Below, one piece after another: positions 2,429 through 34,748 of a stretch of 36,492 nucleotides of DNA; position 1 is the first letter of the stretch, and each line of letters starts with the position of its first letter. Origin of the DNA: Clostridia bacterium (lineage in GTDB: Bacteria > Bacillota_A > Clostridia > Oscillospirales > CAG-272); contig JAFSUU010000084.1 in NCBI GenBank assembly GCA_017445115.1, positions 1-36,492 of the forward strand, in the 5' to 3' direction. Position numbers and translations under genes: made by a program. The notes under the pieces were generated by a model, which saw only the letters and a program-made list of their open reading frames with translations, had not been told where the DNA came from and ran no database searches.

Positions 2429-2522
2429 AAAATTTTTTTGCAGTTTCAAGGTTTGTTTAAGGTTTGCGGTTTATAATACGACTACAATGAAAAAGGCGAT
2501 GCGCCTGAAGGAGGTAACTTCT

Positions 2523-4658
2523 ATGAAAAAAATCGCATTATTTGCCGTTCTGGCTTTAATTGTTGTTTCACTGATCCTTTCATCCTGCTCCGCGGGAGGA
2601 AGCAGTGACACATCGTCCTCTTCGTCGAGTTCCGGAGAGGTGACCGGAGGCGGCGCGGACACGTCCGTCGAGAGTACGAACGAGGACAACTTTAACGAAG
2701 AGCTTGAGTCAAACGGAGACTTCACCGTGACGAGCGGAGAGGGCGCGGGGGCAGTCACCGTATCCGGCTCGACTTACACGATAACGTCGGCGGGCGAGTA
2801 TACGCTCTCCGGTATGCTCGAAGGAAATATCGTCGTCAACGCGGAAGACGGAGACGAGGTCATACTTATTCTCTCGGGCGCGACGATAACTTCGTCCGAT
2901 ACCGCGCCGATAGCGTTCGTTAACGCCGACAGCGGTACGGTCAAAGCGGAGGAGGGAACTTACAACGCGATCCACGACGAGAGGACAGGTTCACCCGACG
3001 CGGAGGACGCCGATGAATATGACGGCGCGATCTACGCCGCGTGCGACCTGAAGCTTTCCGGCAAGGGATCGCTCATCATCACTTCGACTTATGACAACGG
3101 CGTCAAGACGAAGGACGACCTCAAGGTCAAAAACGTTACGCTTAAAGTCACCGCTCCCGGCAACGCGCTCAAAGGCAACGATTCGATAACTGTCGAATCC
3201 GGCTCGCTGATACTCATTTCCACCTCGTCCGACGGTATTAAAACAGACAACTCCGACGTTTCGGAAAAGGGAGTTCAGAGAGGGATCATCACGATATCCG
3301 GCGGCACGGTCGATATCTACGCCGCCTGCGACGGCATCAGCGCCGCTTATGACTGCGTGATATCCGAGGATGAGGAAAAGTGCGTCGTCAATATCTACAC
3401 TTCGACTTATTCCGAAAACACCGGCGACGTCGCCGTGTCAAGCGACCTCTACGTCATAGTACCGACCTCGATCTACAGCGAGAGCGTCGACTACTACGCT
3501 TACTTCTACAACGAAGACGGAGAGGGTGTCTGGAAGAAATGTGAATACGAGACGATGGTATACAACGGAAGGACCGCTTCGTACTACGGTCTAATCGTCA
3601 AGGAACCGTCCGGATATTCCGGATTCCTCGTCTGCACAGTCGCATCGGGCGTAACTCCCGACGGCGATAATTACAGCGCGACGAGCGGCGGCGAAGCGAT
3701 GAATTCTTCGATGAACGGATATCTTATCAATTCGATCTCCGGCGACTCGATCGAAGGAGACTGGGTGACGCTGACGACGAACTCCGGACAGGGAAATTCA
3801 AATAAAACCACCTATTCTTCAAAGGGAATCAAGGTTTATAACGACGTTCTGATCTCCGGCGGGACGGTCACGATATACGCAATGGACGACGCGATCCACG
3901 CGAACGCGGGCGAAAAGCTTGAAAACGGCTCTACCGGAAACGGAAACGTCGAGATCTCGGGCGGCAAGGTAACTCTGACGTCAGCTGACGACGGTATCCA
4001 CGCCGACTCGGAACTTACGATCTCCGGCGGCTACGTCAACGTAGTGAAATCCCACGAGGGACTTGAAGGAAACGTTATCAATATCGCCGGCGGCGAGATC
4101 TATGTCTACGGTGACGACGACGGACTCAACGCCTGCAAGGGCTCGTCTTCAACGTTGATCAATATCACCGGCGGCTATCTCGATGTCACGACGCCCTCGG
4201 GAGATACCGACGCTATCGACTCCAACGGAAGCTTTACGATGTCCGGAGGTTTCGTCCTCGTCAAAGGCGGTTCGTCAAGCGGCTCCGTCGCGGGCTCGAT
4301 CGACACCGACGGCTCAGTCACTGTCACGGGCGGCACGATCATCGCCTTCGGCGGCATCTGCGAAGTGCCGTCGTCCGGATCGGTCAACTACTACGTTTCG
4401 AACGGAACGTCGTTCGGAGCCGGCGACTACGTACTTTCGGGTTCAAACGGCACGATCGCTTCGTTCACGCTTGGCTCTTCCTACTCGTCCTGCTGGATCG
4501 CATCGGACGCCTTTGAGCTGAACGGCTCGTACACGCTGACTAAAGGCGGCTCGACAGTCCTCAACTGGACGCAGTCGTCGTCGGCTTCCGGCGACCAGGT
4601 CAGCGGCGGCTTCGGCGGAGGCGGATTCGGCGGAGGCGGCTTCGGACCGAGAAGGTAG
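2523..4658 (+). CDS. Carbohydrate-binding beta-helix lipoprotein (Cthe_2159/DUF4353-like)
   Basis: Secreted lipoprotein of 711 residues. The signal peptide ends in the lipobox L19-S-S-C22, followed by a Ser/Gly/Asp-rich linker of about 45 residues that probably spans the wall. The rest is made of repeated turns such as GEYTLSGMLEGNIVV, DGAIYAACDLKLSGKGSL, DDGIHADSELTISGG and DDGLNAC, the signature of the family of the Clostridium thermocellum protein Cthe_2159, a parallel beta-helix that binds acidic polysaccharides such as polygalacturonate. The aspartate-rich turns are the expected calcium sites. The C-terminus ends in a GGFGGGG tail with three glycine-rich units and PRR. AAGGAGG at 2509-2515 decides the start at 2523; the in-frame ATG at 2487 has no ribosome site and lies just after a TATAAT at 2472-2477. 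Likely surface adhesion or substrate capture. Confidence 0.85.
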   Translation: MKKIALFAVLALIVVSLILSSCSAGGSSDTSSSSSSSGEVTGGGADTSVESTNEDNFNEELESNGDFTVTSGEGAGAVTVSGSTYTITSAGEYTLSGMLEGNIVVNAEDGDEVILILSGATITSSDTAPIAFVNADSGTVKAEEGTYNAIHDERTGSPDAEDADEYDGAIYAACDLKLSGKGSLIITSTYDNGVKTKDDLKVKNVTLKVTAPGNALKGNDSITVESGSLILISTSSDGIKTDNSDVSEKGVQRGIITISGGTVDIYAACDGISAAYDCVISEDEEKCVVNIYTSTYSENTGDVAVSSDLYVIVPTSIYSESVDYYAYFYNEDGEGVWKKCEYETMVYNGRTASYYGLIVKEPSGYSGFLVCTVASGVTPDGDNYSATSGGEAMNSSMNGYLINSISGDSIEGDWVTLTTNSGQGNSNKTTYSSKGIKVYNDVLISGGTVTIYAMDDAIHANAGEKLENGSTGNGNVEISGGKVTLTSADDGIHADSELTISGGYVNVVKSHEGLEGNVINIAGGEIYVYGDDDGLNACKGSSSTLINITGGYLDVTTPSGDTDAIDSNGSFTMSGGFVLVKGGSSSGSVAGSIDTDGSVTVTGGTIIAFGGICEVPSSGSVNYYVSNGTSFGAGDYVLSGSNGTIASFTLGSSYSSCWIASDAFELNGSYTLTKGGSTVLNWTQSSSASGDQVSGGFGGGGFGGGGFGPRR

Positions 4659-4660
4659 GT

Positions 4661-4789
4661 GCGACTTACGCTGCGCTTGCCGTCGCAAGTGATGCGTTTC
4701 GAAACTGTGTTTCAAAACATGATGCGCCTACGGCGTGATGTGTTGCTTTGCAACGTGATGTTCGCGGCTTTGCCGCGAATGATAAGTTA
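4661..4789. repeat. Hairpin array 1, linker word GTGATG/ATGATG
   Basis: Directly after the stop codon. The constant word occurs at 4689-4694, 4719-4724, 4735-4740 and 4755-4760, and the array closes with ATGATAAGTTA at 4779-4789. Between the words are different palindromes: an imperfect GTTTC/GAAAC stem, CGCC-CGGCG, GTTGC-GCAAC and TTCGCGGC-GCCGCGAA. Each palindrome has its own sequence but similar size (10-24 bases). Seen directly; folding was judged by eye only. Confidence 0.75.
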
Positions 4790-4896: not shown

Positions 4897-4930
4897 AAAA
4901 GCAGACTGAAATCAAAATCAGTCTGCTTTT
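4897..4930. terminator. Bidirectional intrinsic terminator
   Basis: A 13-base perfect stem, AAAAGCAGACTGA with TCAGTCTGCTTTT, around an 8-base loop. It has T runs on both strands, so it could end transcription from either side. It follows the carbohydrate-binding lipoprotein gene. Confidence 0.8.
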
Positions 4931-4944
4931 CATTTTCAGCAGGA

Positions 4945-5122
4945 TAAATGAAGACATCGGTTGCGCCGATTAATGAAGTCGTTCGCTTTGCTCGCTAATG
5001 AAGACGGCAATTTCGTTGCCTAATGAAGCGAAGACGCCCGCTTGAAAAAACGTCAGATTTGAATTTCTTCATTAGCGAAGCGTCTTCATTCCTTCATTAG
5101 CCCGCTTGCGGGCGTCTTCATT
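4945..5122. repeat. Hairpin array 2, linker word TAATGAAG, orientation flips midway
   Basis: The word reads forward at 4945-4953 (TAAATGAAG), 4971-4978, 4996-5003 and 5021-5028, then in the reverse orientation (CTTCATTA or CTTCATT) at 5067-5074, 5084-5090, 5092-5099 and 5116-5122. Short palindromes lie between the words, for example ATCGG-CCGAT, GGCAA-TTGCC and GCCCGC-GCGGGC. The flip makes the entire region an imperfect large inverted repeat. Confidence 0.75.
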
Positions 5123-5193
5123 TTCGGCGCGGTAAGCGAATTTCGGAAAAACATCCTTATCACGCCGCGCCGAAACCGGTACCGCGGTCTTAT

Positions 5194-6956: not shown

Positions 6957-6979
6957 TTCGATTTGTCGCTCGGCAGAAA

Positions 6980-7010
6980 ATGATATATTCCAAAGCTGAC
7001 GCTTTGAAAT
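6980..7010. repeat. Hairpin unit with word ATGATAT (left piece of a split array)
   Basis: ATGATAT (6980-6986) is followed by the stem ATTCCAAAGC with GCTTTGAAAT (6987-7010). Nearly the same word and stem open array 4 at 18159-18187, and the preceding TCGCT-GGC-GAAA sequence is also similar. The companion piece found in array 4 lies on the other side of the next gene, at 7870. Confidence 0.65.
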
Positions 7011-7057
7011 ATATACAGGAAAACGGTGCAGCAGAATTTGAGAGAAGTTGAGATAAT

Positions 7058-7861
7058 ATGAAAAAAACGCCTATGAATAGCTCAAATAATAGAAACGATA
7101 ATAGTTCGAATGGTATGCTTTTTTATGATGAGAACGGATCATCTGCTATTGATAATTCTTTCCCACATAAAAGAAAGAAAAGAAAAATATTACTGATCAT
7201 GTCAGTATGCTTTTGTCTTGCTGCGATCACGGCAGTTATATTGTATTTTGCCGGTGTTTTCAAAGGTAATGACTTGAATCAAGGCGTAAACAATGATGGC
7301 CCTCTGCGCTGGACATCTGCTGCCGCTGAGCCAATGGCGTTACTGAAAATAAAGAATCAGTCGAATGAAATTACTGATATTGATCTCAGTGATTACAACT
7401 GTAATATAAGCTGCGTTAAATGCGATTGTGAAGTCTTGTTTTTTGAGGAAAACGTAAAGAAGAGTCGGTGGGAGTATGCATCATTCGCAGATGTGATTTA
7501 CGTTCCTTACGACTATAGAGAGGAATTCTGCCCCGGATCGACTGTTTTGATCGAACTATATGCTGCAGAAAGAGGAAAAGAATATTACCTGCCGCATATG
7601 GACAAAGAACTTCATCCGGAATATCTCTCATTTTATGAAGGAAAGCTAGTTGATCTGGATTTTCCAAAAAGCGAAGGGTTTTATTTAATAAAAGAAGTCA
7701 ACAAAGAGATAGAAAGTGAACAGGCAAAAGACAAATGGGGGGACATCCTTTATGACCGTAAGCTTGAATGCGGTATGAGCGTAGAAGAAGTACGCGACTA
7801 TTTAGCATCGATTTGGCCGGCTGCTGAATGCTATTGGAATAATTTTGTAGATTGCAGATAA
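7058..7861 (+). CDS. AT-rich single-pass membrane protein of unknown function
   Basis: 267 residues, not recognised. The N-terminal 40 residues are Asn/Ser-rich and cytoplasmic-looking, then KRKKRK stops before a membrane helix at about residues 43-66. The remaining 200 residues would be outside and are acidic, with several cysteines in one cluster (NCNISCVKCDCEV near residue 112-124) and an LYDRKLECGMSVEEVRDYLASIWP segment at the end resembling a small C-terminal helical domain. Codon use is clearly AT-richer than in the neighbours (many AAT, ATA, GAA and TTT codons), suggesting a different origin. Only a weak GAGAGAAG-like ribosome site is seen, and no convincing promoter. The gene is flanked by two pieces of one repeat array (6980-7010 and 7870-7928), so it may be an insertion. 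Confidence 0.7.
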   Translation: MKKTPMNSSNNRNDNSSNGMLFYDENGSSAIDNSFPHKRKKRKILLIMSVCFCLAAITAVILYFAGVFKGNDLNQGVNNDGPLRWTSAAAEPMALLKIKNQSNEITDIDLSDYNCNISCVKCDCEVLFFEENVKKSRWEYASFADVIYVPYDYREEFCPGSTVLIELYAAERGKEYYLPHMDKELHPEYLSFYEGKLVDLDFPKSEGFYLIKEVNKEIESEQAKDKWGDILYDRKLECGMSVEEVRDYLASIWPAAECYWNNFVDCR

Positions 7862-7869
7862 TAGCAATA

Positions 7870-7928
7870 ATGATATACCGACGCGATGCGTCGGATGAAA
7901 AAAACGTCAACACAAAAGAATAACATTT
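7870..7928. repeat. Hairpin unit with word ATGATAT plus conserved tail (right piece of a split array)
   Basis: ATGATAT (7870-7876), the palindrome CCGACGCGATGCGTCGG (7878-7894), then a tail that also follows the same palindrome at 18245-18296 (ATGA..., CGTCAACA, then ...CATTTCCCTGAAG). The same order of word, palindrome, tail and double hairpin occurs in both places, so this is a composite element and not chance. Confidence 0.7.
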
Positions 7929-7987
7929 CCCTGAAGCTTTTTGAAGGGGGCGCGGGGGTGACTTTTTCTCGAAAAAGTCTCCCCCGC
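7929..7987 (-). terminator. Double-hairpin element copy 1; terminator of the fructose operon
   Basis: A small imperfect hairpin (CCCTGAAG...GAAGGGGG) and then a long stem GCGGGGGTGACTTTTT with AAAAAGTCTCCCCCGC (7952-7987). It lies just past the stop codon of ptsI on the minus strand and would end that operon. Three further copies occur at 13795, 18297 and 29486. Confidence 0.75.
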
Positions 7988-8013
7988 GTATTCATTTTTC
8001 TTTTTCTTATTCT

Positions 8014-13743: not shown

Positions 13744-13794
13744 TTTTCTCAAATACGCCATCAAAACAGTCAAGAAAAGGATAAAAAGAAAAAG

Positions 13795-13853
13795 CCCTTC
13801 AAAAGTTTTTTGAAGGGGCGCGGGGAAACCTTTTTTCAAAAAAGTTTCCCCGC
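13795..13853 (-). terminator. Double-hairpin element copy 2; terminator of the HerA-like gene
   Basis: CCCTTCAAAA with TTTTGAAGGG, then GCGGGGAAAC...GTTTCCCCGC (13820-13853). Read on the minus strand, the second hairpin is followed by CTTTTTCTTTTT, a good T tract just past the stop at 13873. Confidence 0.8.
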
Positions 13854-13872
13854 AATTCATTCATTATTATAA

Positions 13873-15417
13873 TTATCTCTTATACGTTCCGAAAATGCCG
13901 CGGAAGATCTGCTTTCCGAGCTCGCGGCCGAAGGAGTTCATAGCGGAAGAGGTCGCTTTGCCGACCGCCGACGATTTGCGCTTCGCGGCTTTCGCTTTCT
14001 GCTCTCTCTCCTTTTCCTTCTTCTTCGCGGCTTCTTCTTTTGCTTTCGCCGCCTCGGCTTTGGCTTTTTCGGCCTCCTCTTTCGCCTTTGCCGCCGCTTC
14101 TTCTTCCTTTGCCTTTTCCTCGGCGGCGCGCTCTGCTTCCGCTGAGATTATCTCGTACGCGCTCTCGCGGTCAATGATCTCGCCGTATTTTTCAAACAGC
14201 GGGCTCTGACCGATGACCGCCGCGACGACGTTGGGGTCGACCGCGTTCATCGAGCTTTTCGGCGGGAGGATACCGGCGCGCTCCACTATCGTGGGCACGC
14301 CCTTTTCGTCGAGGACCGAGACGAGAGCCTCGCCGGTCGCGAGCTCCTGAAGAGCCGTCTCCGTGTCGAACGACGGATTGACTCTGAACGACTTTGCAGC
14401 GTAACGAAGCGCCTTCTGTTCATTCGGAGTGTAGGCGCGCAGCGCGTGCTGAACTCTGTTGCCTATCTGTCCGAGCACGCTCTCCGGTATGTCGGATGGG
14501 TTCTGCGTGATGAACCAGACGGAAACGCCCTTCGATCTGATAAGACGGACTACCTGCTCGACTTTTTCGAGAAGCGCCTTCGGCGCGTCGTTGAAGAGCA
14601 GATGCGCTTCGTCGAAGAAGAACGCGATCTTCGGACGGTCAAGGTCGCCCGCTTCGGGAAGCATTTCGTATAGCTCGGAGAGCATCCAGAGAAGGAACGT
14701 AGAGTAGAGAAGCGGGTGCTGGAAGAGCTCGGAACACTCGAGGATATTCATAACGCCGCGGCCGTCGTCAGCCCAGTCGAACCAGTCCGCAAGATCGAGC
14801 GCCGGCTCGCCGAAAAAGATGTCGCCGCCCTCGTCTTCGAGAGTGAGGAGCGCGCGCTGTATCGCGCCGATCGAGCCGCTCGCCACGTTGCCGTATTTAA
14901 GCTTGTATTCGGAGGCGTTGTCGCCCACGTGCTGGACCATAGCGCGGAGGTCTTTGAGATCGAGGAGCAGAAGCCCCTTCTCGTCGGCGATCCTGAACAC
15001 AATGCGGAGCACGCCGCTCTGTACGTCGGTCAGACCGAGAAGACGCGCGATCAGCTCCGGTCCCATCTCGGAGACGGTGGTGCGTACCGGATGACCGTGC
15101 CTCGTGTAAACGTCGAAGAATCTTGCCGGGTACGACGTGTAGTTGAAGTTTTCAATGCCCATCGTGTCGATAGAGCGCCTGATATGCTTGTTCTCGGCGC
15201 CGGGCTGGCACATTCCGGTGAGGTCTCCCTTGATGTCCGCGATGAAAGTCGGAACTCCCATCTCGGAGAACGACTCCGCGATGACCTTCAGCGTCACCGT
15301 CTTTCCGGTTCCGGTCGCGCCAGCGATAAGTCCGTGGCGGTTCGCCATTGAGGGATTGAGATAAATCCTTTTGTCGCTCGTCGCAAGCCATATCTTTCCT
15401 TCATCTTCTAAATACAT
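13873..15417 (-). CDS. HerA/YjgR-type P-loop ATPase (DUF853)
   Basis: 514-residue ATPase related to HerA and to E. coli YjgR. The protein opens with a short beta segment and Walker A GATGTGKT (33-40), followed by the YjgR-type FIADIKGDLTGM. Walker B is KIAFFFDEAHLLF at about 250, and sensor FITQNPSDIPESVLGQIGNRVQHALRAY is typical of the family. The last 90 residues are a highly charged Lys/Glu/Ala helix (KAKEEAEKAKAEAAKAKEEA) likely to be a long coiled coil, ending in SSAVGKATSSAMNSFGRELGKQIFRGIFG. HerA proteins pump DNA with NurA; YjgR partners are unknown and no nuclease gene is next to it here. AGGAGG lies 9 bases before the ATG. Confidence 0.9.
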   Translation of the reverse strand: MYLEDEGKIWLATSDKRIYLNPSMANRHGLIAGATGTGKTVTLKVIAESFSEMGVPTFIADIKGDLTGMCQPGAENKHIRRSIDTMGIENFNYTSYPARFFDVYTRHGHPVRTTVSEMGPELIARLLGLTDVQSGVLRIVFRIADEKGLLLLDLKDLRAMVQHVGDNASEYKLKYGNVASGSIGAIQRALLTLEDEGGDIFFGEPALDLADWFDWADDGRGVMNILECSELFQHPLLYSTFLLWMLSELYEMLPEAGDLDRPKIAFFFDEAHLLFNDAPKALLEKVEQVVRLIRSKGVSVWFITQNPSDIPESVLGQIGNRVQHALRAYTPNEQKALRYAAKSFRVNPSFDTETALQELATGEALVSVLDEKGVPTIVERAGILPPKSSMNAVDPNVVAAVIGQSPLFEKYGEIIDRESAYEIISAEAERAAEEKAKEEEAAAKAKEEAEKAKAEAAKAKEEAAKKKEKEREQKAKAAKRKSSAVGKATSSAMNSFGRELGKQIFRGIFGTYKR

Positions 15418-17420: not shown

Positions 17421-17520
17421 GTGAAATCCGACGCAGTGCGTCAGGTGAAATCGTCACGTGTGACGGTGAAATCTTTCCGTCGGAAAGGTGAAATCCGGCC
17501 TTCGGCCGGGTGATAAGTTA
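17421..17520. repeat. Hairpin array 3, linker word GTGAAAT
   Basis: The cleanest array. GTGAAAT occurs at 17421, 17445, 17466 and 17488, and each copy is followed by a different palindrome: CCGACGCAGTGCGTCAG, CGTCACGTGTGACG, CTTTCCGTCGGAAAG and CCGGCCTTCGGCCGG. The array closes with GTGATAAGTTA at 17510-17520; array 1 closes with the same TGATAAGTTA. It directly follows the LCP gene stop codon and precedes its terminator. Confidence 0.85.
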
Positions 17521-17570: not shown

Positions 17571-17605
17571 GTGTGCGAAAACTCTTTAGGTGAGCACTCA
17601 CTAAC

Positions 17606-17722
17606 TGTCATCCTGAGCGTAGTCGAAGGATCTTCAGATGAGCGGAGAGAGTGGACAAAACCAAGAACCGTTTATGATAAGATCCTTCGGCGAATCGCAG
17701 ACAATTCAGCCTCAGGATGACA
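17606..17722. repeat. TGTCATCCTGAG-bounded element, copy A
   Basis: Perfect 12-base inverted ends (TGTCATCCTGAG and CTCAGGATGACA) enclose about 90 bases with GAAGGATC and GATCCTTCG inside. A miniature-transposon-like shape; no coding region and no transposase is near. Similar CATCCTGAG repeats are known from many bacterial genomes. Confidence 0.7.
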
Positions 17723-17782
17723 CGTTTGGTCGTTTGGCTTTGAATTATGTGCACGATGCCTCTGTTTGTAATCAAACAAGCC

Positions 17783-17932
17783 TGTCATCCTGACCCGTGA
17801 ACCCCAAAAATCTGACGATTTTTGAGGACCCCGGGTAAGGTCGCCGCGTGGGATCTCCTTAGCATAATGTAACTCTGTGCCGGGGAGATCCTTCACTCCG
17901 CTGCGCTGCGCGATCTCCGTTCGAGGATGACA
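17783..17932. repeat. TGTCATCCTGAG-type element, copy B
   Basis: Ends TGTCATCCTGA and GAGGATGACA. The inside shares GTGGGATCTCCTTAGCATAA and GGGGAGATCCTTCACTCCGC with copy C, apart from single changes, and includes an inner CAAAAATC/GATTTTTG stem not seen in the others. Confidence 0.7.
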
Positions 17933-17994
17933 GTTAGGGGGCGTGCTCTTACAGCGATATCGTGTTCTAAATATCAAAGCTAAACGACCAAACG

Positions 17995-18100
17995 TGTCAT
18001 CCTGAGGCGACGCCGTGGGATCTCCTTAGCATAATGTTACTTTTTGCCGGGGAGATCCTTCACTCCGCTTCGCTTTGCTTCACTTCGTTCGAGGATGACA
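17995..18100. repeat. TGTCATCCTGAG-type element, copy C
   Basis: Ends TGTCATCCTGAG and GAGGATGACA. Together with the outer flank of copy A it forms a 33-base inverted repeat with one mismatch (17711-17743 against 17974-18006) around copy B. Confidence 0.7.
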
Positions 18101-18158
18101 GTGTGGGGTTCGTTTTGATAATAGTGATTTTGTTTTTCATTGATCTTTCGCTTGGAAA

Positions 18159-18261
18159 ATGATATATTTCAAAGAGGGCTTTGAAATATGATATACCGGC
18201 AGCGGAGCTGTCGGCATGATATCTGCCCTGCGGTCAGATGATATCCGACGCGATGCGTCGG
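18159..18261. repeat. Hairpin array 4, linker word ATGATAT
   Basis: ATGATAT at 18159, 18188, 18216 and 18238, each followed by a palindrome: ATTTCAAAG-CTTTGAAAT, CCGGCAGC-GCTGTCGG (imperfect), CTGCCCTGCGGTCAG and CCGACGCGATGCGTCGG. The first and last units also appear on either side of the gene 7058-7861, in the same order. Confidence 0.8.
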
Positions 18262-18296
18262 ATGAGGAATATCGTCAACATAAAAAATATCATTTC

Positions 18297-18351
18297 CCTG
18301 AAGTTTTTGAAAGGGGTGCGGGGAGAACTTTTTGAAAAAAGTCCTCCCCGC
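18297..18351. terminator. Double-hairpin element copy 3
   Basis: CCCTGAAG...GAAAGGGG, then GCGGGGAG-ACTTTTT with AAAAAGT-CTCCCCGC (18318-18351). Here it is not placed at the end of a gene; it ends the composite element of array 4, as copy 1 does at 7929. Confidence 0.65.
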
Positions 18352-18438
18352 AATATTCTTCCCCGTTTTATATTTGTGCTTTTTGCTTAAAAAAGGAAGT
18401 GTTAAATTATGTATAAGGGAGATTTGTATTTTGCCGTA

Positions 18439-28394: not shown

Positions 28395-29462
28395 ATGAAA
28401 ACGTTATTGAAGGTCATCGCAATAATTCTCGGCGTGATAATTCTCGTTGCGGGCGGATATTTCGCGTATCTTATGATCGCGTTCCACCGCATAGGCGACA
28501 TGACGGTCGAAGTTTCAGACGGGACGACGGCGTCGGCGGAAGTCGGCAAAGAATATTCTATTGTTTCTTATAACATCGGCTTCGGAGCTTACGAGTCCGA
28601 TTACGGCTTCTTTATGGACGGCGGCAAGGAATCCTGGGCGTGGTCTGAGGAGAGGCTCGATGCGAACCTGAAGAATATTTCTTCTCTTCTCAAGGACCGC
28701 GGAGCCGATCTATACATAATTCAGGAAGTCGACTTCGATTCGACGAGAAGCTATCATTTCGACGAGCGCACGTATCTGGCGTCTGCGCTCACCGGTAAAG
28801 ATTACACGTTTGCACAGAACTACGATTCGCCCTTCCTTTTCTATCCGATCTTCCAGCCGCACGGCTCGTCGAGATCCGGTCTTATGACGTTCTCGTCGTT
28901 CGACGTCAAATCGGCGGAAAGAGTAGAGCTTCCGATCGAGACGGGACTTACAAAGTTCCTCGACCTTGACCGCTGCTACTCCAAAAACAGGATAAAGTGT
29001 GAAGACGGAAAGGACCTCGTACTCTACAATTTCCACCTTTCTGCCTATACTTCAGACGGAAAGATCGCGACGGAACAGCTGAAGCTCCTGCTCAACGACG
29101 TTGAGTCGGAGTACTCCAAGGGCAATTACTGTATTGCCGGCGGTGATTTCAACAAGGATATTCTCGGCGATTCTTCGGTATATTTCGGAAAATCCGATAT
29201 AGAGTATACCTGGGCTCAGCCGATCCCCGAGGGAACGCTCGACGGTTATCATGTGACTCTCGTCGCTCCGCTCGACAAGGATGATCCGGTTCCGACCTGC
29301 CGCAACGCCGACGGGCCGTACAAAGAGGGCCAGTACGTTCTGACGATCGACGGTTTTATCGTCACAGACAACGTCACAGTCGTCTCATCCGACGTCATCA
29401 ACACCGAATTCGCATACTCCGATCACAACCCGGTGACGATGACTTTCAAGCTCGGGAAATAA
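28395..29462 (+). CDS. Membrane-anchored endonuclease/exonuclease/phosphatase-fold protein
   Basis: 355 residues with one N-terminal membrane helix (about 6-27) and the rest outside. The EEP fold motifs are in order: SYNIGFGA (metal-side Asn), YIIQEVDFD (Glu), GGDFNKDI (Asp-x-Asn), LTIDGFIVT and SDHNPVTM (catalytic Asp-His at the end). Such proteins cut phosphodiesters of nucleic acids, lipids (sphingomyelinase or inositol phosphatase type) or sugars. The extracellular position makes a phospholipid or nucleic-acid substrate possible. It follows the glycerol genes by 40 bases, with no terminator between, and ends at the terminators 29486-29592. If it hydrolyses lipid headgroups it would feed the same pathway; this is only an idea. 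Confidence 0.85.
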   Translation: MKTLLKVIAIILGVIILVAGGYFAYLMIAFHRIGDMTVEVSDGTTASAEVGKEYSIVSYNIGFGAYESDYGFFMDGGKESWAWSEERLDANLKNISSLLKDRGADLYIIQEVDFDSTRSYHFDERTYLASALTGKDYTFAQNYDSPFLFYPIFQPHGSSRSGLMTFSSFDVKSAERVELPIETGLTKFLDLDRCYSKNRIKCEDGKDLVLYNFHLSAYTSDGKIATEQLKLLLNDVESEYSKGNYCIAGGDFNKDILGDSSVYFGKSDIEYTWAQPIPEGTLDGYHVTLVAPLDKDDPVPTCRNADGPYKEGQYVLTIDGFIVTDNVTVVSSDVINTEFAYSDHNPVTMTFKLGK

Positions 29463-29485
29463 GGATATTAATAAATAGGAATTAT

Positions 29486-29545
29486 GCGGGGAAACTTTTT
29501 GCAAAAAGTTTCCCCGCACCCTTTCAAAAATCTTTGAAAGGGCAT
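29486..29545 (+). terminator. Double-hairpin element copy 4; ends the galactoside-glycerol run
   Basis: GCGGGGAAACTTTTT with AAAAAGTTTCCCCGC (29486-29517), then CCCTTTCAAA with TTTGAAAGGG (29519-29542) and a T-rich tail. The order of hairpins is reversed relative to the other three copies, in line with the plus-strand gene it follows. Confidence 0.8.
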
Positions 29546-29563
29546 TCTTTTATTAAACTGCTT

Positions 29564-34463: not shown

Positions 34464-34703
34464 ATATCGGCGCAAGCAGGGAATTTGTACTGCAAATTCC
34501 AAAGGCGATATGTTTTGCAAATATGCAAAACGCGATATAACTGCTTCGCAGTTGCGATATATTCGTTTATGAACGAAATATATCGTCCATAAGCGAAATG
34601 CGATATGATATTTGCCCTCGTTCGCGAAGCGAACATATCGCGTGCCGAAGGCACATATCGAACACCGAAGGCGTATATCGCTTGCCCGAAGGGCAAATAT
34701 CGC
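34464..34703. repeat. Hairpin array 5, linker word GCGATAT, orientation flips midway
   Basis: GCGATAT forward at 34505, 34532, 34554 and 34600; reverse ATATCGC or ATATCG at 34464, 34635, 34655, 34675 and 34697. Between words lie GTTTTGCA-TGCAAAAC, AACTGCTTCGCAGTT, ATTCGTTTATGAACGAAAT, GTTCGC-GCGAAC, GTGCCGAAGGCAC and TTGCCCGAAGGGCAA. The largest array in the window. Confidence 0.8.
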
Positions 34704-34704
34704 T

Positions 34705-34748
34705 GCCGACTGTCCTTTAGAACAGTCGGCAAAAGACCGCCTTTTTTT
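34705..34748 (+). terminator. Terminator-like hairpin closing array 5
   Basis: GCCGACTGT and ACAGTCGGC pair (34705-34713, 34722-34730). The following GACCGCC also matches GGCGGTC at 34374-34380, and a run of seven T follows. It may end transcription in two alternative folds. Confidence 0.65.

Follow-up and report, generated by a model that had tools for sequence, protein, structure and literature searches.

The window, by which we mean the whole 36,492-nt stretch of DNA analysed here, carries five intergenic arrays in which a short constant word alternates with palindromic hairpins (Table 1). In all five, the intervals between words are filled by different palindromes, which bears out the picture drawn in the preliminary description of a fixed word with exchangeable palindromes. 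The location that it gave, noncoding DNA at gene ends, also stands: array 1 starts directly past the stop codon of the gene at 2487-4658, and array 3 about 20 bp past the stop of a gene whose product is LytR_cpsA_psr according to Pfam. TGATAAGTTA does end both arrays (4780 and 17511). The word originally given for array 1 is one base too long for one of its copies. The palindrome CCGACGC...GCGTCGG, said to accompany two words, is perfect with ATGATAT but imperfect with GTGAAAT, where it reads CCGACGC..GCGTCAGG. Three words (GTGAAAT, ATGATAT and GCGATAT) are heptamers, and two (TAATGAAG and TGATG) are not. Each array has its own word within the window, as had been stated, but arrays with these words are found in other genomes as well; most words also occur as single copies elsewhere in the window.

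Table 1. Positions of the arrays and adjoining features in the window
Feature	Position	Strand	Details
Array 1	4661..4789	+	word TGATG in 4/4 copies, GTGATG in 3/4; 3' end is TGATAAGTTA
Terminator-like palindromic hairpin and T-run	4897..4930		shortly 5' of array 2
Array 2	4946..5124		word (T)AATGAAG; forward half 4946-about 5040, inverted half 5066-5122
Left-end piece, array-4-type	6976..7012	+	86.5% identity to 18155-18189
Right-end piece, array-4-type	7870..7987	+	one unit; 83% identity to 18238-18351
Array 3	17421..17520	+	heptamer GTGAAAT x4 (17421, 17445, 17466, 17488); 3' end is TGATAAGTTA
Array 4 element	18155..18351		termini GGAAAATGATAT / ATATCATTTCC, then terminator-like hairpin
Array 5, forward half	34505..34606	+	heptamer GCGATAT x4 (34505, 34532, 34554, 34600)
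Array 5, inverted half	34630..34705	-	ATATCGC on the + strand, x3 (34635, 34675, 34697); Gut-1 match

Arrays 2 and 5 are each built of a forward half and an inverted half, a feature that the preliminary description did not mention. The termini of array 2, AATGAAGAC and GTCTTCATT, are inverted repeats, and TAATGAAG occurs in it three times forward (4971, 4996 and 5021) and twice in reverse (5067 and 5092). The heptamer of array 4, ATGATAT, occurs four times (18159, 18188, 18216 and 18238; span 18159-18261), with further copies at 6980 and 7870. The left-end and right-end pieces of the array-4 type flank an ORF at 7058-7861 (267 aa), as if a foreign gene had entered such an element; this ORF had no Pfam match and was not called by the codon-usage gene model. 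Terminator-like hairpins such as that at 4897..4930 abut elements in relatives too. A double-hairpin terminator-like repeat (CCCTTCAAAA..GGGG and GCGGGGAAACTTTTT..) was observed at 7934-7996, 13782-13879, 18301-18358 and 29456-29555, joined in two places to ends of array-4-type elements. Another dispersed repeat (GTCATCCTGAG...GGAGATCCTTC) occupies 17600-18110, where 17847-17940 and 18014-18108 are 86% identical.

Arrays were scored with a detector for words that come back at spacings of hairpin size, the gaps being taken up mostly by a single stem-loop, with 40 dinucleotide shuffles as the control. At word length 6, the + strand yielded five segments, corresponding to arrays 2, 3, 4 and 5 (the last as two), against a shuffle mean of 0.025. 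Chance alternation, which the preliminary description had named as a possible refutation, is thus far exceeded in arrays 2-5. Shortening the word to 5 bases gave eight segments (0.6 per window in shuffles), two of which (9252 and 11843) are chance matches that lie outside the arrays and inside genes. At neither word length did any of the 40 shuffles contain a segment of three or more good units. Array 1 is weak by itself because its shared word is only TGATG and it was detected only at word length 5. Its place in the family is suggested by TGATAAGTTA, common to it and array 3, and by GTGATG arrays in the relative G153 (one at L174, with the reverse form at L184).

The preliminary description had known of no named family with this logic. 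In a search of the whole window with the Rfam covariance models, one family was matched at gathering score, namely Gut-1 RNA (RF01706), which has the same design. The minus strand of array 5 scored 50.6 bits (gathering 50; E = 2.8e-7). At relaxed thresholds, array 3 fell just under the cut-off (48.8 bits, E = 7.9e-7), so that two arrays match at E < 1e-6; arrays 4 and 1 scored 26.4 and 23.0 bits, below the cut-off, and no match was listed for array 2. The printed consensus, CAaUGAAAU-hairpin-GUGAAAU-hairpin-GUGAAAu-hairpin-UGAAAUuG, contains the word of array 3. A full-text literature search for RF01706 found PMC2864571 alone, whose passages on Gut-1 call it certainly an RNA, probably not cis-regulatory and 'human gut only'. 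Gut-1 as listed there resembles the present arrays in its alternation of (G)UGAAAU with three hairpins, in its terminus CAaUGAAAU and in its occurrence in gut bacteria, although it is listed from environmental sequences only. By contrast, the family described here occurs also in rumen Clostridia, is dispersed, comprises several word classes and inverted halves, reaches tens of matches in some genomes and is linked to PF05635 genes. Judged from these sequences, Gut-1 would be one subfamily of a dispersed repeat family with several word classes rather than a single RNA.

Relatives, rumen and gut Clostridia metagenome-assembled genomes (MAGs), were reached via a PTS protein of the window; their assemblies are fragmented, and contigs may be broken or made chimeric at repeats. 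Gut-1 matches were found in 20 of 32, with up to 37 in one genome. The LytR_cpsA_psr protein of the window is 61% identical to its counterpart in G153, and all four genomes examined from the genus with the nearest LCP protein match Gut-1 (28, 18, 13 and 3 matches at E 0.01). Across the phylum the family is rare, being found with stricter filters in 5 of 398 evenly drawn genomes, G042 included. In 693 kb sampled from G042 there were 31 candidate arrays, some of them chance matches in genes, against none in one shuffle. The codon-usage gene model was applied to 42 oriented candidates in G042, G153, G028 and the window and classed 33 as noncoding; the nine coding ones are mostly chance matches by appearance.

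The words mark subfamilies of the dispersed repeat. One such subfamily, in G042, is a 200-bp element with the word ATATCATCA/TGATGATAT; a DNA search of that genome returned 15 matches to it including the query, some of them parts of one locus. The long matches are 70-78% identical, and seven aligned copies have different flanks. The outer arm of this element co-varies with its inner partner, CCAAGCCG occurring with CGGCTTG and CCATTGCG with CGCAATG; the copy at L237 fits poorly. Another element, matching Gut-1, was aligned in 15 copies from G003, G002 and G007. The alignments of its ten G003 copies span 200-340 bp of 3-kb loci, the left flanks of the 15 copies differ, and 12 of the 15 have a further terminator-like hairpin on the right. 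L317 and L320 align over 626 bp, and such cross-genome pairs are therefore probably orthologous. At L260 and L261 in G042, several GCGATAT/CGATAT arrays start with a recurring GTAGGGGCGA..TCGCCC hairpin, from which these arrays appear to be mosaic. The Gut-1 element was also matched at 92.6% in MT835590.1 (L365), filed as an unverified bacteriophage from human faeces. A phage home was considered and rejected: by eye, its neighbours there (TetR-like, sugar-kinase-like and one PF05635-like) look chromosomal. A plasmid search did not find the Gut-1 element, nor did a phage search with array 5 find a match.

Comparison of closely related loci indicated how the elements come and go. Two genes of G003 are followed by the Gut-1 element, whereas in their presumed orthologues in G002 (75% and 72% identical in DNA) the stop codon is followed by a plain intrinsic terminator; at these two compared sites, the element takes the terminator position. 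L291 equals the near-identical L277 of one genome minus exactly two units, and the window copy at 7870 has one unit against four in array 4. These two comparisons back the suggestion, made in the preliminary description, of slippage or unit loss between words. In the tRNA-Pro(ggg) arrays of two genomes (L082 and L274), the word is kept and several hairpins differ. A tRNA or tmRNA gene was present in 13 of 48 scanned array loci; none was found in the window. In tandem contexts, 11 arrays are oriented with transcription and 4 against it, numbers too few for a claim. The array locus L343 of G003 brings together two segments that are separated by 12 kb in G002 (L352); the cause would be either rearrangement at the repeat or chimeric MAG assembly.

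The preliminary description had suggested looking for a dedicated protein. A candidate, PF05635 (23S-rRNA-IVP/S23, Avd-like), was identified in related genomes, but none was seen in the window, where PF05635 was not found among the eight proteins scanned with Pfam. It would also be the candidate protein if the arrays served as the RNA-binding protein scaffold that the preliminary description had listed as a possible role. At L317, L320 and L365, copies of the Gut-1 element run into a PF05635-like gene. In seven genomes (G002, G003, G008 and G024 at E 0.001; G042, G153 and G178 at E 0.01; one weak fragment left out), a Gut-1 match lies at most 450 bp from 10 of 36 PF05635 genes above the cut-off against 0.52 expected (Poisson P = 2e-10), these genomes having been picked for their arrays and the link noticed in them before counting. 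The match is upstream in nine of the ten. The other 26 genes have no Gut-1 match nearby, and Gut-1 matches far outnumber PF05635 genes in these genomes. PF05635 was detected in 22 of the 24 Gut-1-bearing genomes versus 2 of 12 without a Gut-1 match; G016 and G108 have Gut-1 matches and no PF05635, and G021 and G031 the reverse.

In a tree of 36 PF05635 proteins, the 11 array-linked ones require two label changes versus 9.6 in shuffles, on a sample that is not blind since some loci were fetched for their arrays. L381, a twelfth protein of the array-linked clade, likewise lies downstream of a Gut-1 match. Within each supported subclade there is a single word class, namely TGAAAT (four proteins), TGATGATAT (two) and ATGATAT (two), an agreement between word and protein that covers 12 loci, some of them orthologous. 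L085 (RTGATAT) does not group with L278 and L200 (ATGATAT) despite their related words. A tRNA gene lies on the upstream side at 10 of 15 loci of the wider clade versus 0 of 20 other PF05635 loci; at L085 and L278 it stands between array and PF05635 gene. The sole solved PF05635 relative found by sequence was 2RLD, which has five chains. Apart from PMC4990558 on S23p, a literature search returned nothing on arrays or heptamers linked to PF05635.

PF05635 genes without hairpin arrays have tandem heptamers upstream, with locus-specific words. When the best self-match lag between 3 and 15 was taken for each upstream region, it was 7 in 21 of 24 regions, among which are four near-duplicate pairs. 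In a second set of 29 regions, taken from 28 of 30 loci in 299 genomes drawn across the phylum, it was 7 in 22. The controls gave lag 7 in 57 of 580 shuffles and in 68 of 596 upstream gaps of ordinary genes (Fisher P = 2e-14 for the 22/29 set). Lag 7 was also best at 27 of 57 other genes of the same 3-kb loci; the heptamers therefore surround PF05635 genes and are not strictly upstream. At L418 and L421, the tandem words upstream of the PF05635 gene are of 11 bases instead of 7. The array-linked genes gave no lag-7 signal at 0.8 (0 of 12), so equating the hairpin word with the heptamer depends on word length and tree position; hairpin words are 7 bases long in some classes and 8 or more, or 5, in others.

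Related heptamers are on record. The sections of PMC4990558 on the 23S rRNA intervening sequence describe tandem heptamers, two or three by strain, before its S23p ORF, and report that an S23p is a toroidal homopentamer and that the function of S23p is not known. The intervening sequence and the present family are alike in having an S23p-family ORF (here in relatives, none having been seen in the window), inverted terminal repeats that form a large hairpin, a stable-RNA locus and tandem heptamers of varying number 5' of the ORF. As described in those sections, however, the intervening sequence has one 28-bp terminal stem, lies inside 23S rRNA and is excised by RNase III, whereas the present elements have several hairpins each, occur next to tRNA genes and gene terminators and for the most part lack the ORF. 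A location inside 23S rRNA is not what was observed here: 10 of the 15 loci of the wider clade have a tRNA gene on the upstream side, and the window has no Rfam rRNA match. The tandem heptamers before the ORF are shared by the non-array PF05635 genes. Avd of diversity-generating retroelements also resembles PF05635, according to the part of PMC10053308 that treats it.

Taken together, the arrays of the window may be gene-less copies of a dispersed, palindromic, PF05635-linked element family of uncultured gut and rumen Clostridia, with the word as the site of the protein, a reading whose chances we consider evenly balanced. In the fullest form observed in relatives, the element runs from a terminator-like hairpin through the array and a promoter to the PF05635 gene, often near a tRNA gene, the array itself often having a forward half that faces an inverted half. 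The protein is a four-helix bundle with S23p (one of which is a toroidal pentamer) and Avd as relatives. A PF05635 oligomer would recognise the word as a heptameric site, and the palindromes would be replaceable hairpins that space and display the words. Co-evolution of protein and word could give each lineage its own word, and the arrays of the window would have lost the gene or never carried it, persisting at the ends of transcription. The dispersal, structure, PF05635 adjacency and heptamers are observations; recognition of the word by the protein, like its purpose, is something that we infer. This reading would make the orphan Rfam RNA Gut-1 one branch of a dispersed repeat family with a candidate protein, and would provide PF05635/S23p, whose function is given as not known in the S23p sections of PMC4990558, with a candidate target in the adjoining heptamer word. 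It also hints at a little-understood kind of genetic element, in which arrays precede a gene for a small protein that has word-preceded relatives.

A different possibility, which we regard as somewhat doubtful, is that the arrays function in transcripts, where as 3'-UTR or tRNA-trailer structures they would stabilise or terminate mRNA, and that Gut-1 is rightly classed as an RNA. The element does lie directly 3' of stop codons at the two sites where relatives carry a terminator. Moreover, 13 copies of the Gut-1 element (two of the 15, with long insertions, were left out) share a 58-pair structure in which 97.9% of 753 pair cells are kept, against 36-47% paired in slid versions. Two-sided, compensatory changes affect five pairs (11 cells) versus 1.5 (3.6) in shuffles, but further pair types do not outnumber those in shuffles (234 of 500). 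Folding of one copy gave z -9.1 as RNA, but the DNA fold was equally unusual, at z -9.9. The first mismatch at the stem base, read on the word strand, is G-T in 104 cases and A-C in 16 (215 units), an excess largely due to the constancy of the words. The 13-copy alignment has 19 G-T versus 9 A-C cells (14 versus 7 distinct events), but in the inverted half the two are even, at 6 to 7. Internal stems are near-perfect, with 1.1% G-T pairs as found by a detector that favours Watson-Crick pairs; the G-T share of 18% in terminators was obtained with a permissive caller and does not serve as a firm control. Mismatches embedded in stems, when searched for, proved too few to count. In addition, a promoter beating at least 296 of 300 shuffles lies between array and ORF at 5 of the 12 PF05635-linked loci, and the array is therefore not the leader of the PF05635 mRNA there.

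The loops also argue against an RNA. Over 221 units, which are not independent within one array and from which nine loci judged false positives were left out, GNA triloops number 72 on the anti-word strand versus 2 on the word strand, and GNNA tetraloops 29 versus 1. With the nine loci kept in, word-strand triloops are C-TNC-G in 51 and C-GNA-G in 2 of 100. Loops of the GNA and GNNA kind form extraordinarily stable mini-hairpins in DNA, as stated in the portion of PMC4686876 devoted to them. Calculated DNA and RNA energies did not differ clearly by strand; almost every triloop has the same energy in the parameter sets. We also considered a closed multi-way junction, as Gut-1 can be read as CAAU-GAA-AU[H]GU-GAA..AUUG and flank pairing was tested, with p 0.02 for all 87 arrays and p 0.0004 for the 52 compared within word class. 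It is not claimed, because the flanks held half-hairpins and some of the 87 arrays are chance matches. A 203-bp element with a 14-bp closing helix is 96.7% paired in that helix, with no two-sided change.

The loop bias is consistent with a single-stranded DNA element, in which anti-word-strand hairpins are substrates of a DNA-processing enzyme, as in REP-like systems, and the word is a foot or guide; this we consider rather unlikely. Proteins of the Y1 family (PF01797; 44-63 bits, frames of 240-300 aa) are encoded in eight array-bearing genomes, truncated in three more, and in none of 12 without Gut-1. A RAYT/Y1 transposase was nevertheless rejected as the driver: despite this co-occurrence, no convincing arrays were present at four Y1 loci (L298-L301, 1.5 kb on each side), three of which had no array candidate and one (L299) two at chance level. 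Array-rich G032 and G178 have no PF01797 match, and G017 only a weak one. REP, BIME and REPIN sequences, in the descriptions of PMC3733652, PMC3116915 and PMC6006769 that bear on them, are likewise dispersed intergenic palindromes that form clusters and inverted pairs. They carry a GTAG or CGTC tag, however, whereas words of the noncoding arrays have neither and are of the TGA/CGA type. In addition, no palindrome sequence is fixed within an array here, and each subfamily has its own foot word. CGTC occurs in one word, at L256, which is located in a gene and looks like a chance match. At L298 (G153), a long Y1 transposase gene stands beside different, GGGGACGGTTCTATGTC-type repeats, possibly a RAYT-repeat pair in Clostridia.

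It is improbable that the arrays are a functionless by-product of template switching and slippage that create and homogenise palindromes and words: near-perfect stems, unit loss between word copies and the replacement of hairpins under a kept word at the tRNA-Pro(ggg) arrays would fit, but the loop polarity relative to the word (101 to 3), the adjacency to PF05635, the rarity in the phylum and the inverted two-half design do not.

A broader proposal can be made, although tentatively. PF05635 (S23/IVP) proteins and locus-specific heptamer arrays could be the two halves of one general system, in which the protein forms an oligomeric ring that recognises the repeated word belonging to it. Its most elaborate target would be the word-hairpin arrays, among them Gut-1, and the free copies scattered over gut genomes would be a population, trans-acting or parasitic, obliged to carry a word that fits the ring. 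The window itself contains a tract of TTTTCCA-like heptamers at 703-747 (self-match of 83% at lag 7), which lies upstream of a spermine-synthase-domain gene at 785-2428 and next to which no PF05635 gene was observed.
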